Assembly: GCA_029781035.1 (NCBI GenBank)
Contig: JAKOXK010000084.1
Span: forward strand, 1-42,499
Length of the DNA stretch: 42,499 bases
Origin: Armatimonadota bacterium
GTDB taxonomy: Bacteria > Armatimonadota > Fimbriimonadia > Fimbriimonadales > Fimbriimonadaceae
Reading direction: 5' to 3'
Shown here: in pieces, positions 2,661-7,807 of the stretch
Numbering within the stretch: the first letter of the stretch is position 1
How the letters are laid out: each line of letters starts with the position of its first letter
Position numbers and translations under genes: made by a program
The notes under the pieces: model-generated
The model's database searches: none
Seen by the model: the letters and a program-made list of their open reading frames with translations, nothing else
Told to the model about the DNA's origin: nothing

Positions 2661-4142
2661 GTGGAACGAGACCTCTTCGCCCTCCAGGACCGATTCAACC
2701 GCCGAACCTTCATGAAACGGACGGGTGGTGTCGGGCTCGCCGCGCTCGCCAGCATCATCGGCGACGAGGCGTTTGGTGCCCTCGTTCCGAGGGGAACAAC
2801 CCCCGGCGACGAGAAGCGGTTCGGCGGACTTCCTCAGTTCCCCAACTTCGCACCAAAGGCTAAACGCGTCATTTACCTCTTCCAGTCCGGCGCTCCCAGT
2901 CAGATGGAGCTCTACGACTGGAAGCCCAAGCTCCTTGAGCGTCGCGGTGAGGACCTGCCAGCCAGCATTCGCAACGGTCAGCGCCTCACTGGCATGACGA
3001 GCGGCCAGGCGAAGTTCCCGGTCGCACCCAGCATCATCAAGTTCAACAAGTACGGCAAGAGTGGAATGGAACTGGCAGAGATCCTTCCCCACCTGGGTGA
3101 TGTCGCCGACGACCTGTGCCTGATCCGCTCGATGTACACCGATGCCATCAACCACGATCCGGCCGTTACGTTCTTCCAGACGGGAAGTCAGTTGGCGGGT
3201 CGGCCCAGCATCGGTTCCTGGCTCAGCTACGGCCTTGGCACCTTCAACAAGGATCTGCCTGCGTATGTCGTACTTACCAGCATCGGTAGCGGACGCAAGG
3301 ACGACCAGCCCCTCTACGACCGACTCTGGGGCAGCGGATTCCTGCCGACCGAACACCAGGGCGTCAAATTCCGAAACACCGGCGATCCCGTCCTCTTCCT
3401 CAGTGACCCGCACGGCATCGATCGCGAAACCCGACGAGAGATGCTTGACGACCTCATGGGCCTCAACCAAGAGCGCAAAGCCGTCATGGGCGATCCCGAG
3501 ATCGACACCCGGATCGCGCAGTACGAGCTTGCGTTCCGCATGCAGACCTCTGTGCCTGAATTGCTCGACATCAGCAAAGAGCCTGCTTCAGTGCTTGAAA
3601 TGTACGGCCCGGCGGTCAAGACCCCCGGCACCTACGCCTACAACTGCCTTCTCGCTCGCAGGCTCGCCGAACGGGGCGTGCGGTTCGTGCAGCTCTTCCA
3701 CATGGGTTGGGACCAGCACTTCAACCTCCCGAACGCGATCAAGCTGCAGGCGCAGGACACCGATCAGCCGTCGGCGGCTTTGATCAAGGACCTGAAACAA
3801 CGGGGGATGTTCGATGAGACGCTCATCGTCTGGGGCGGCGAGTTCGGACGGACGGTCTACTCGCAAGGGGACCTGACCGAGACCAACTACGGCCGCGACC
3901 ACCACCCGCGCTGCTTCTCGGTCTGGATGGCCGGAGCCGGCGTGAAGGGCGGCCTCACCTACGGCGAGACGGACGACTACTCCTACAACATCGTCAAGGA
4001 CGATGTCTCCGTGCACGACCTGCACGCGACGATGCTTTACCTCCTCGGCATCGACCACACCCGGCTGACGTTCCGGTACCTGGGTCGCGATTTCCGTCTG
4101 ACCGACGTGTTCGGGGATGTCGTGAAGGATCTAATCCGCTGA
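2661..4142 (+). CDS. DUF1501 family secreted protein (sulfatase-like fold)
   Basis: The 493-residue protein starts at a GTG. An N-terminal twin-arginine signal is visible (NRRTFMKRTGG, residues 13-23, then an Ala/Leu-rich stretch), so it is probably exported folded by Tat. The body shows features of the DUF1501 family: FQSGAPSQMELYDWKPKL near residue 75, HDPAVTFFQTG near 165, and the C-terminal WGGEFGRT and GRDHHP motifs. DUF1501 proteins are related to alkaline phosphatase/sulfatase enzymes and in Planctomycetes and Armatimonadota usually stand next to a DUF1553/DUF1549 cytochrome-type gene; none is present here. Substrate unknown. The 1-kb REP/RAYT element begins 3 bases behind the stop, and a second diverged copy of its last 32 codons lies beyond the element. 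Confidence 0.9.
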   Translation: MERDLFALQDRFNRRTFMKRTGGVGLAALASIIGDEAFGALVPRGTTPGDEKRFGGLPQFPNFAPKAKRVIYLFQSGAPSQMELYDWKPKLLERRGEDLPASIRNGQRLTGMTSGQAKFPVAPSIIKFNKYGKSGMELAEILPHLGDVADDLCLIRSMYTDAINHDPAVTFFQTGSQLAGRPSIGSWLSYGLGTFNKDLPAYVVLTSIGSGRKDDQPLYDRLWGSGFLPTEHQGVKFRNTGDPVLFLSDPHGIDRETRREMLDDLMGLNQERKAVMGDPEIDTRIAQYELAFRMQTSVPELLDISKEPASVLEMYGPAVKTPGTYAYNCLLARRLAERGVRFVQLFHMGWDQHFNLPNAIKLQAQDTDQPSAALIKDLKQRGMFDETLIVWGGEFGRTVYSQGDLTETNYGRDHHPRCFSVWMAGAGVKGGLTYGETDDYSYNIVKDDVSVHDLHATMLYLLGIDHTRLTFRYLGRDFRLTDVFGDVVKDLIR

Positions 4143-4145
4143 CCA

Positions 4146-4174
4146 CATGCCTCGGCACGCCCCGTGCCGAGGCT
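4146..4174 (+). repeat. REP palindrome, left boundary copy
   Basis: A perfect 11-bp inverted repeat (GCCTCGGCACG / CGTGCCGAGGC) with loop CCC, at 4149-4173. With its flanking CAT and T it is the exact reverse complement of the copy at 5123-5151. It can form a strong hairpin 6 bases behind the DUF1501 stop, so it may also act as a terminator or mRNA 3'-end stabiliser. Confidence 0.85.
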
Positions 4175-4453
4175 CAAGAACCGCCGCCCCGTGCCGAGGC
4201 TAAAAGGCCATAGCGACCCGTGCCGATGCTAAAGGAGCCCCACCACGCCACCCATGCCTCGGCACGCCCCGTGCCGAGGCTCAAGAACCGCCGCCACGTG
4301 CCGAGGCTAAAAGGCCGGAGCGACCCGTGCCGAGGCTAAAAGGCCGGAGCGCCACGTGCCGAGGCTAAAAGTCAGGAGCGCCACGTGCCGAGGCTAAAAG
4401 TCTGGAGCGCCACGTGCCGAGGCTAAAAGTCTGGAGCGCCACGTGCCGAGGCT
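4163..4453 (+). repeat. Tandem array of REP half-palindromes, mainly 29-bp period
   Basis: The core CGTGCCGAGGCT (one copy has GATGCT) occurs ten times, starting at 4163, 4190, 4219, 4270, 4297, 4326, 4355, 4384, 4413 and 4442. The last six are at 29-29-29-29-29 spacing after a 27-base step; units end in TCAAGAACCGCCGCC or TAAAAGTCTGGAGCG types. The units differ from each other only by a few bases and there are no unique spacers, so this is a tandem array and not a CRISPR. Confidence 0.85.
4256..4280 (+). repeat. Second complete REP palindrome inside the array
   Basis: The full palindrome (11-bp arms, loop CCC) is repeated here in the same orientation as the left boundary copy. It divides the array into a first block of three half-units and a second block of seven, as if the block had been duplicated and then extended. 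Confidence 0.8.
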
Positions 4454-4536
4454 CAAGAACCGACGCCCCGCTGACAAGCTCATGTCAGCAAAAATAGCGA
4501 CTCCCAGCCGCCGCCGCAGCGAATAGACTTTGATCC

Positions 4537-5124
4537 GTGCGGTACCGGCATTGGAAGAACTGGGCCACGAACGGCGAGACCGCTTTCGTGACGACGACCT
4601 GCCTCGACTTCGTGCACGCGTTCCGGCGGGAAGAGATGCGCGAACTGATATCCGCCTTGTTGATCGCTGACTGTAGCCGCTATCGGTCACCGCTCTACGG
4701 CTTCGTCGTGATGCCGCACCACGTCCATTACATCGTCCAATGTCCCCCTGCCAAGACCGTGTCCTGGCTGGTACAACGGTTCAAGTCCAACAGCGCGAAG
4801 CTCGTGTTGCCGCGCCTGACCCCCGAGGAGCTGGCCTGTTTCGACCAACAAAGGGGCCTCAACCGGAGATCCTTCTGGATGGACGGCTTTCGGAGCGTCG
4901 TCCTGGACAACGACGCGATGTTCGACCAAAAGCTCGATTACGTGCACTGGAACCCAGTCGAAGCCGGGTACTGCGAGCAACCCGTACAATACCGTTGGTC
5001 GTCAGCGCGGCTCTACGCCCAAGGGGGGCTGGAACACGAGTCAGGGCTGCGCCTCGATCTGTGCCTTCCCTACTTCGACGTGTCTCCAGAGAGCCTCCTT
5101 GTGGCCAAACCGCTCAGTGGATAG
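4537..5124 (+). CDS. REP-associated tyrosine transposase (RAYT, Y1/TnpA-IS200-like)
   Basis: The 195-residue protein starts at GTG 4537. It has the HUH-type metal motif HVH (residues 62-64, in [11 protein letters not shown]) and a Tyr at 135 in the family motif [10 protein letters not shown], the expected nucleophile of Y1 transposases. FRREEM near the N-terminus and the SFWMDGFRS segment before the Tyr helix are also typical. RAYT proteins nick and join single-stranded REP hairpins and are usually domesticated single-copy genes. Here REP palindromes and a REP array surround the gene, and the stop codon (5122-5124) lies inside the right-hand palindrome. The catalytic residues are intact, so activity is plausible. 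Translation could be limited by the upstream hairpins. Confidence 0.92.
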
Positions 5125-5151
5125 CCTCGGCACGGGGCGTGCCGAGGCATG
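5123..5151 (-). repeat. REP palindrome, right boundary copy (inverted)
   Basis: Exact reverse complement of the left boundary repeat: arms GCCTCGGCACG / CGTGCCGAGGC at 5124-5148 with loop GGG instead of CCC. It overlaps the RAYT stop codon and marks the right end of the element. Confidence 0.85.
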
Positions 5152-5176
5152 TAAGGGGCTTGCCAAGCCTCGTCCA

Positions 5177-5275
5177 CTCGGCCTCGACCACACTCGGCTA
5201 ACGTACCGGTACCTGGGCCGCGATTTCCGTCTGACGGACGTGTTCGGGGATGTAGCGAAGGATCTGCTGAAATAA
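5177..5275 (+). pseudogene. Orphan 3' end of a second DUF1501 gene
   Basis: These 33 codons, ending with TAA at 5273-5275, encode [20 protein letters not shown] followed by [12 protein letters not shown]. This matches the C-terminus of the DUF1501 protein ending at 4142 ([20 protein letters not shown] then DVFGDVVKDLIR) at all but five residues. Most DNA differences are synonymous, which indicates descent from a functional paralogue and not a recent copying error. The similarity starts abruptly near 5177, about 25 bases after the REP/RAYT element. No start codon or rest of the gene is present. Confidence 0.85.
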
Positions 5276-5462
5276 CACGACGTGCTAACCTAGGTTCCAA
5301 ACGACGGAGCTGGGCGCACACCCACAACTATCGCTCGCACCACGACCAAACTTCCGGTCGGCTACATTCACACCTCAGGCTCTCATCGAATAGAACTGCG
5401 CCCTGCCCGCGCCTGTCTGCCCTGTGGTACTTTCACAACGCACAACAAGGTAGCCTCCACAG

Positions 5463-6671
5463 GTGGCTGAAAGAGACCCTAACCTGCTCGACCAGATCGA
5501 TGAGGAGGAACTGTGGGAAGAGATCGAAGGCGCTGACCGAGCTCCAAGGCGAGCAACTCCTGAGGACCTCGTACGTAAGTACTCCTCTCAAGATGGCAGA
5601 ATCCTTGTGCAGCGCAATGATTTCTTGATCCCCAACATACTGTCAATGATTGACAATAGGGAGGTCATGGATCTAGCGCCGCAATACCAACGGAGGTACC
5701 GCTGGAACAACCGCAAGCGATCACAACTGATCGAATCCCTTCTGCTTAATATACCAATCCCCCCGATCTTCTTGTATGAGACTGACTACGCGAGGTACGA
5801 AGTCATGGACGGCCAACAGAGATTGTCAACCATAAAGCTTTTCTTCGGCAACTCATTCAAGCTAAACCAACTAACAGAGTGGCCCGAACTCAATGGGAAG
5901 TATTTTCGCGATTTACCTTCTCAAATTCAGAACGGCCTACGACGCCGAGGACTTGCGGCAGTCATTATCCTAACCGAGAGTGGGCAAAATAAAGAAACTG
6001 CTATGCGCTTGCGCCAGTATGTCTTTGAACGCCTCAATACTGGCGGGCAGCCCCTGAATGCTCAAGAAGTTCGCAACTGTCTCTTCGCTGGGCCGTTCAA
6101 CGACCTGCTCATTGACCTGTCCAGATGTCCGGAATTTACCCAAGCGTGGGACATTCCACCGAGAGAGCCCGACGAGCCGTACCAGATTTCGCGGTTACTC
6201 GAGAGAAATCGTCTCTACTCTTACATGCTAGATTGTGAAATTGTGCTCCGCTTCTTCGCATTTCGGGATCTAAGCTTCTTCTCGTCCGGGGTTAAGCGTA
6301 CGCTCGACGCCACAATGAATCGCTTCCTCAATGTCACCCAGGGCTGGATTGACGACGAAAGAGCCAACTATCTCGCAATCCTGAGGCTGGCCTTGGGAAT
6401 TTATGGTGCAGCGCTCTTCCGGCTGCCAGATGAGAGCGGCGAGCTCAGTGGCCGTCGTTCGGTTGCATTTGCCGATGCAGTACTTGTGGGCCTTCAGTTC
6501 AATCTTGGCAAGGCACAACACCTCCTTGCCAAGGCAAAAGAGATTCGACAGCAAACGAAGCTCCTGCTGGAAGACGAGGAATCATACGCTCTTATTGTAG
6601 GGCGTGGAAATACTAAGTCAGAGACTGAGTCAAGAATCAGATTAATGGCTAACTTGTTTGAGACCATCTAA
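5463..6671 (+). CDS. DUF262 (ParB/GmrS-like) protein, partner of HEPN protein
   Basis: The 402-residue protein starts at GTG 5463. The DUF262 signature DGQQRLSTI is at residues 116-124, preceded by QRRYRW (76-81) and IPIPPIFLYE (97-106), and followed by FERLNTGGQPLNAQEVRN (188-205). DUF262 domains are ParB-like folds with predicted nucleotide-hydrolysing or nuclease activity; in GmrSD the same domain recognises and restricts modified DNA. The usual C-terminal DUF1524 HNH nuclease of GmrSD is absent here. The HEPN gene follows after 2 bases, so the two are one transcription unit. Base composition is clearly more AT-rich than the neighbours, which suggests acquisition by transfer. A defence role is inferred from the domain pair. 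Confidence 0.88.
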   Translation: MAERDPNLLDQIDEEELWEEIEGADRAPRRATPEDLVRKYSSQDGRILVQRNDFLIPNILSMIDNREVMDLAPQYQRRYRWNNRKRSQLIESLLLNIPIPPIFLYETDYARYEVMDGQQRLSTIKLFFGNSFKLNQLTEWPELNGKYFRDLPSQIQNGLRRRGLAAVIILTESGQNKETAMRLRQYVFERLNTGGQPLNAQEVRNCLFAGPFNDLLIDLSRCPEFTQAWDIPPREPDEPYQISRLLERNRLYSYMLDCEIVLRFFAFRDLSFFSSGVKRTLDATMNRFLNVTQGWIDDERANYLAILRLALGIYGAALFRLPDESGELSGRRSVAFADAVLVGLQFNLGKAQHLLAKAKEIRQQTKLLLEDEESYALIVGRGNTKSETESRIRLMANLFETI

Positions 6672-6673
6672 CA

Positions 6674-7459
6674 ATGGGAAGTGCCTCTGCTGGCTTCAAG
6701 CGCTCGGCGCGACAACTCAGGACGTGGCTGGATGTATATGCCACGGCGCGCCAACTTGCCGGATCCAATTACAGCGCTATCACTACAAGACATCCGGTTG
6801 GTGCGTTGGCACGGAAGATCCGTGACGCAGTTCGGAAGGGTGGATCTACAGGCGTTACTTTCGCACTTGAAGGGGCGTATCTAAGTGCGTACGCAGAGTA
6901 TGAACTTGCTGTTCGTGGGATGATTGAGGACTCTGCGCAGCATATTTCTCGACGCCTCAAGCCGTACGCAAAGTGCCCAGATAGTTTCAAGAGCGCTCAC
7001 GAGAAGGGATGCGCTACGATTTTGCAGAGAATGGACTGGGATCAGTTTGCTCACCTAACACAGGTACAGGTAATCGGTGACCTGCAATCCTGCCTCCTGT
7101 CGGCGTCTAAGGGCGACGTGTTTTGTATACGGCCCGAGGCAATTTCGTACTCGGACAGAAATTTCGTGCATAGCGTTGTTCAAGAGAAGATCTCTTCTTT
7201 GGGGCTGAATAGTCTATGGCCGAAGGTTGCGGCGCGTAAAGAGGTGTTGTCTTTCTATGGCACGAAGAACTCGTCGATTGCTCAGCAGATGCTCACGCAA
7301 GAGTTGGATCGAATTGTAAAGCAGCGCAATACGATTATTCACCGTGGACGCACAGCTTATACCCCATCTGACGCTGATGTGAGACGGTGCCTTGAGGTGT
7401 TTGAGCTATTGCTGACTGCTTGTGAAGCAGTTGTAAGAGCGTATTGTAGAGCATTGTGA
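6674..7459 (+). CDS. HEPN domain protein, predicted RNase (MAE_28990-like)
   Basis: The 261-residue protein ends in a helical domain carrying RNTIIH at residues 218-223. This is the RNxxxH (Rx4H) motif that forms the active site of HEPN ribonucleases, followed by the helix ADVRRCLEVFELLLTACEAVV. The N-terminal half (residues 1-200) is also helical, with FALEGAYLSAYAEYELAVRGM suggesting a second HEPN-like helical pair. The overall pattern recalls the MAE_28990/MAE_18760 type of HEPN proteins, which I recall as being linked to DUF262 genes; I cannot verify the family assignment. The ATG is 2 bases behind the DUF262 stop. Likely role: RNA cleavage on phage or stress signal, held in check by the DUF262 partner. 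Confidence 0.75.
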   Translation: MGSASAGFKRSARQLRTWLDVYATARQLAGSNYSAITTRHPVGALARKIRDAVRKGGSTGVTFALEGAYLSAYAEYELAVRGMIEDSAQHISRRLKPYAKCPDSFKSAHEKGCATILQRMDWDQFAHLTQVQVIGDLQSCLLSASKGDVFCIRPEAISYSDRNFVHSVVQEKISSLGLNSLWPKVAARKEVLSFYGTKNSSIAQQMLTQELDRIVKQRNTIIHRGRTAYTPSDADVRRCLEVFELLLTACEAVVRAYCRAL

Positions 7460-7807
7460 TGCTGTCAGTCGGCTGGGTGGCTAGGCTATGGCGTGGCTCT
7501 CGGCTGGGCGGTGTTTCTATGGTCCACAGGTGGTCAGTCAACTGCCGCTCTGGCGGCCACAGCCATGTCCGGAGGACTTTCCTTGCCCGCGGGGTCGCCC
7601 TAACGGCTCGCTGCGCTCAGTTGGCGGCTGAACCCGACAGGAGCAGACGTCTCCGACAGGCCCGTCGAGGCGCCGGGCACCAAAAGGAGCGCGTCGGTGC
7701 CTCTTGGCGCACCGTTAGTTCATGAGGATGGGCCGTCAGAACGAAAGGACGGTGCTCCCAATCGGCACGAGCATGTTCAATTGCCGCCGTCGGCGGCCCG
7801 AGGTTCA
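7460..7807. other. Intergenic stretch after the DUF262-HEPN pair, with attC-like ends
   Basis: No gene is supported in these 348 bases; the open frames have no recognisable protein features. GC rises sharply again from about 7540. The outer motif CTAACGG at 7600-7606 is complementary to CCGTTAG at 7712-7718, with a GC-rich imperfect palindrome between them. The 119-base spacing and the outer AAC/GTT trinucleotides resemble an integron attC site. The match to the full consensus ends (RYYYAAC / GTTRRRY) is incomplete and no integrase is in the window, so this is only a possibility. Confidence 0.25.

Follow-up and report, generated by a model that had tools for sequence, protein, structure and literature searches.

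The window, a 42,499-nucleotide stretch (positions 1 to 42,499) of contig JAKOXK010000084.1 of an Armatimonadota bacterium (assembly GCA_029781035.1, family Fimbriimonadaceae), carries at positions 5463 to 7459 a cassette of two genes on the same strand. The first encodes a DUF262 protein and the second a HEPN protein, and only 2 nt separate the stop codon of the one from the start codon of the other. These coordinates and the gap agree with an earlier note on this DNA, and the DGQQR and RNTIIH motifs that it had picked out are present and intact in the DUF262 and HEPN proteins, respectively. The features of the locus are as follows.

5463 to 6671, plus strand: DUF262/GmrSD_N (ParB/Srx-fold) protein of 402 amino acids with a GTG start, recognised by PF03235 (E 6.5e-30), by PADLOC and by its predicted structure
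6674 to 7459, plus strand: RiboL-PSP-HEPN family protein of 261 amino acids with an ATG start, recognised by PF18735 and all-helical in its model
5688 to 5693, plus strand: QR motif (Q76 R77) of the DUF262 protein, invariant in 70 of 70 relatives
5808 to 5822, plus strand: DGQQR motif (D116-R120) of the DUF262 protein, a putative nucleotide pocket, invariant in 70 of 70 relatives
6024 to 6038, plus strand: FxxxN motif (F188ERLN192) of the DUF262 protein, its F and N unchanged in every one of 70 relatives
7325 to 7342, plus strand: predicted catalytic motif R218-N-T-I-I-H223 of the HEPN protein, its R and H kept in each of the 69 partners that cover the site
5456 to 5466, no strand assigned: left copy of the 11-bp direct repeat TCCACAGGTGG, overlapping the GTG start
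7523 to 7533, no strand assigned: right copy of TCCACAGGTGG, which brackets the cassette together with the left copy

The two genes have GC contents of 0.508 (DUF262) and 0.518 (HEPN) and GC3 values of 0.57 and 0.52, all below those of the other window genes checked (GC 0.58-0.62, GC3 0.61-0.80), and the cassette is therefore AT-richer than its neighbours, as had been claimed. Promoter and terminator scans yielded no useful site.

GmrSD_N is the sole Pfam domain of the first protein, and the second scores 45.5 bits on HEPN_RiboL-PSP, whose cut-off is 28.4. A DUF262 domain and a HEPN domain had both been anticipated in the earlier note and both were found; the HEPN family, for which it had named MAE_28990/MAE_18760 as the profile to search, proved to be RiboL-PSP-HEPN and not mainly that one. 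Neither chain has a DUF1524 His-Me nuclease domain in Pfam, and the predicted structure of the DUF262 protein (pLDDT 87.8) agrees with the view that this usual companion is missing. In VIA-align its residues 49-402 align with residues 1-421 of the 580 of BrxU (Z 8.2), at an rmsd of 14.8 Å that reflects differing domain positions; below BrxU come SspE (Z 6.4, 3.7 Å) and then ParB and sulfiredoxin (Srx). Since the BrxU match is confined to residues 1-421, the model indicates that a GmrSD-type sensor and its helical linker are retained in this chain and that the DUF1524 nuclease is absent. The HEPN model is all-helical (pLDDT 94.7), and the top rows of its VIA-align comparison are HEPN toxins, including MntA-HepT (Z 8.9, 127 residues, 3.7 Å), SO_3166-SO_3165 and HEPN-MNT, with Csm6 lower; VIA Z scores of about 8-9 are modest for helical bundles (below about 13), and these alignments count as agreement with the profile only. 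A Foldseek search of the PDB returned nothing significant for the two models, and neither family was matched in a sequence search of solved structures.

A five-sequence alignment served as query for the closest relatives of the DUF262 protein in 84,980 species genomes. In 78 of the 80 best loci, a count that takes in a few HEPN genes that are broken or cut off by a contig end, a HEPN gene lies directly downstream on the same strand, and the gaps are mostly between -20 and +20 nt. The two exceptions are a locus that runs off its contig (L086) and one with a methyltransferase-like gene in the place of HEPN (L044). The pairing is near-obligate and far beyond chance, and on this point the proposal of the earlier note, which had looked for the two genes to be joined across genomes, stands. 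PF18735 is matched by 68 of the 70 partner proteins scanned, and 53 of the 70 match PF18737 as well. HEPN played no part in finding the loci, so the fact that every one of the 69 partners that cover the site keeps R218 and H223 counts as unbiased evidence for an active site; the invariance of the DUF262 motifs in the 70 relatives is partly biased, one search pattern having covered the DGQQ stretch. The distance matrices of the two proteins are correlated at r = 0.946, and 0 of 5000 permutations exceeded 0.31. Within the window's phylum a DUF262 gene stands beside 10 of the 15 HEPN_RiboL-PSP loci that pass the Pfam cut-off (window included). The relatives were found through DUF262, which is better conserved than HEPN; with HEPN itself as query, none were found in plasmids, class-level relatives or viral contigs.

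The genes nearest to the pair were compared in about 70 relatives, and no conserved third gene (a methylase, for example) recurs there; methylases stand beside single examples only, so two genes seem sufficient. DNA methyltransferase genes do lie upstream of the pair on a Tabrizicola plasmid (L026, 1704-3830) and on a Bradyrhizobium plasmid (L035, 567-2216). The HEPN partners of loci L039-L115 fall into two size classes, one of about 260 amino acids, to which that of the window belongs, and one of about 345 amino acids, whose C-terminal extension is uncharacterised. In L024 (6156-7190), L059, L072, L073 and L094, stops or frameshifts interrupt the HEPN gene that follows an intact DUF262 gene; these genomes are mostly cyanobacterial, and the breakage fits a costly effector, in a search that is biased towards intact DUF262.

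The cassette is an acquired insert at a variable spot, since it is AT-rich, missing in a congener, patchy in its phylum and closest to relatives in other phyla. At the same locus in a congener that is 99% complete (G042), unrelated genes lie between shared flanks, which are DUF1501 (81% identity) on one side and ApbE, SUMF and Gfo/Idh on the other. DUF262 relatives (at E 1e-20) occur in 13 of 291 genomes of the phylum and in none of three congeners, and the nearest of them within the phylum is 41% identical; DUF262 proteins that are 54-56% identical are found in Hymenobacter, an uncultured MAG and an Acidobacteriales MAG, and the most similar HEPN partners, at 26-30% identity over their full length, are in these same three. 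Elsewhere the pair travels on plasmids (Shewanella, Tabrizicola, Bradyrhizobium, E. coli) and in prophages, P2-like ones in Vibrio and E. coli and another in Klebsiella, and it also occurs on IMG/VR contigs. The P2_4B2 pair, annotated as a DUF262 protein and a HEPN-like nuclease, is present in 3 of 5426 complete E. coli genomes. The suggestion in the earlier note that this is an acquired candidate defence cassette thus gains support from the profiles, the predicted folds, the pairing, the composition and the absence from the congener. The 11-bp repeat might possibly be an insertion scar, a direct repeat as long having arisen in 13 of 400 sets of randomised flanks (a chance of about 3%).

Next to the cassette, at positions 4537-5124, lies a REP-associated tyrosine transposase (RAYT; NF047646) in an element whose ends are perfect 30-nt inverted REP-like repeats (4145-4174 and 5123-5152) and of which the genome holds no other copy. 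A 29-nt tandem array is present on the left side of this element (4145-5152). The 3' end of DUF1501 at 4044-4132 is duplicated across it at 5177-5265 (91%), and in G042 the locus contains a tandem pair of DUF1501 genes. The RAYT element was considered as carrier of the cassette and rejected, because the cassette lies outside its inverted ends; it is a separate element that probably did not carry the two genes. A defence-island setting is not supported: no island was found in the window, where the other open reading frames matched only three PADLOC families and most of the other genes checked by Pfam are housekeeping genes. Of the setting described in the earlier note, the adjoining transposase is real, and its adjacency is no evidence that it moved the cassette.

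Associations of this kind are on record. Anantharaman et al. (2013) reported RiboL-PSP-HEPN in an operon with ParB and MAE_28990 HEPN in operons with a ParB nuclease and a methylase (PMC3710099); the cassette shares the Pfam HEPN family of the former and has a partner that is likewise ParB-fold (DUF262), and it differs from the MAE_28990 operons in that no DNA methylase adjoins it. Vassallo et al. (2022) found the PD-T4-2 system in E. coli ECOR65, where its deletion restored T4 plaquing, and it protects E. coli from T4 in both native and K-12 contexts, its effect on T-even phages being documented in the same paper (PMC9519451); a 2023 review enters it under both DUF262 and PF18735 HEPN (PMC10952713). 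The earlier note's statement that HEPN-DUF262 pairings had been noticed before is thus confirmed by the 2013 operon record and extended by an experimentally tested system. No mechanistic study of a DUF262-HEPN pair, PD-T4-2 included, turned up in the literature searched.

Kinship with PD-T4-2 was judged by PADLOC profiles and domain content. Both consist of two genes, DUF262 and then a PF18735 HEPN, and the PD-T4-2_A profile (PDLC04027) matches nearly the whole DUF262 protein, residues 65-397 aligning with positions 48-359 of 363. In contrast, the 168-position PD-T4-2_B profile (PDLC04028) has no match up to E 1 in the 261-amino-acid HEPN protein of the window, which moreover comes from a different phylum; among the relatives scanned, only the partner on an E. 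coli plasmid (L030) matches it, weakly. Since the PD-T4-2_B profile does not match its HEPN protein, we class the cassette as a divergent relative of PD-T4-2 and not as PD-T4-2 itself, within the DUF262 + RiboL-PSP-HEPN group to which both belong.

We favour, as the probable reading, a two-gene anti-phage module in which a DUF262 sensor and an RNase of the RiboL-PSP-HEPN group are joined, the sensor releasing the RNase. The DUF262 protein would bind and hydrolyse NTP and sense an infection cue, probably some feature of foreign or modified DNA as with GmrSD, BrxU and SspE, and before the trigger it would keep HEPN inactive. Once triggered, HEPN would cleave RNA through R218 and H223 and so halt phage growth, most likely by arrest or death of the infected cell. 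HEPN enzymes cut RNA and DUF1524 cuts DNA, so a different outcome is expected from the two. In GmrSD, BrxU and SspE the DUF262 domain is believed to recognise modified DNA and to exert NTP-dependent control over DUF1524 (PMC10952713; PMC12137116). Like these type IV restriction proteins, the cassette has a DUF262 domain that bears the QR, DGQQR and FxxxN motifs, together with the helical region that extends to residue 421 of BrxU; unlike them it has no DUF1524 His-Me nuclease and has a separate HEPN protein, which would take the place of the DNase that in GmrSD-type proteins is part of the one chain. Cleavage may have been handed over from DUF1524 to HEPN.

The same operon could instead be a plain toxin-antitoxin pair, in which HEPN is the toxin and DUF262 solely its antitoxin, stabilising a mobile element with no phage sensing. 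The tightness of the two-gene operon, its presence on plasmids and prophages and the toxins of HEPN-MNT toxin-antitoxin pairs as best fold matches of HEPN would all suit such a pair, as would the several relatives with a broken HEPN beside an intact DUF262 (a count biased by the requirement for a readable DUF262). The cassette resembles MntA-HepT in its predicted HEPN toxin fold, its R-x4-6-H type of site and its paired regulator gene; its regulator is a ParB-fold DUF262 protein, and no minimal nucleotidyltransferase adjoins HEPN. Against a toxin-antitoxin pair, antitoxins are usually small, whereas this DUF262 protein has 402 amino acids and nucleotide-pocket motifs fully kept, as in sensor enzymes, and PD-T4-2 defends against phage and is not among the systems that its authors termed TA-like. 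We therefore regard this explanation as unlikely. Less probable still is direct immunity, with DUF262 guiding HEPN to phage RNA or to transcribed phage DNA and the infected cells surviving. GmrSD-type DUF262 proteins recognise modified phage DNA (PMC10952713; PMC12137116) and 9 of the 21 systems of the PD screen act directly, but HEPN RNases are usually unspecific, and the HEPN chain showed no nucleic-acid-targeting part.

There remains the reading of the locus as a degraded or variant Menshen or GmrSD locus that has lost its original effector and has HEPN as an unrelated neighbour. It draws on the PADLOC scores of the DUF262 protein, which are 217 bits for NsnA and 115 bits for PD-T4-2_A. We take NsnA to be the DUF262 protein of Menshen, and in support of this its profile matches a DUF262-DUF3696 locus at 376 bits. 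The cassette thus shares an NsnA-type DUF262 as first gene with the Menshen examples on plasmids (L033 and L034), whose partners, unlike those here, are a DUF3696/OLD-like protein and a third gene. That score of 376 bits is what a true Menshen-type DUF262 attains, with DUF3696 as its partner, and neither DUF3696 nor DUF1524 is found at the cassette, where the second gene is a PF18735 HEPN. The HEPN neighbour is, furthermore, kept in 78 of the 80 relatives, a few of its copies being broken or truncated. This pairing largely refutes the degraded-locus reading, and we give it almost no credence.

Returning to the sensor-released RNase, its kind is not novel: the cassette is a further member of a widespread, known DUF262-HEPN phage-defence pair. 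Together with its closest relatives (L036-L038), it may form a branch of its own, marked by a short HEPN that carries an RNxIIHRGRxxYxP-type signature, in which the ParB-fold NTPase possibly senses a cue other than that of PD-T4-2 and works as a nucleotide-controlled RNase switch; this we put forward tentatively, as a possibility with the odds against it. The pairing itself had been recorded before, and what is added here is that it is near-obligate across many phyla with both active sites retained, which agrees with a defence switch that couples the same sensor domain to an RNase in place of the usual DNase. The E. coli pairs borne on P2 and on plasmids, such as those of P2_4B2 and plasmid pLR-27_3, are handy laboratory versions of the system. 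If the tentative reading of a separate branch with its own cue is true, DUF262 would be a general sensor that swaps effectors, among them DUF1524, OLD-like proteins and HEPN.
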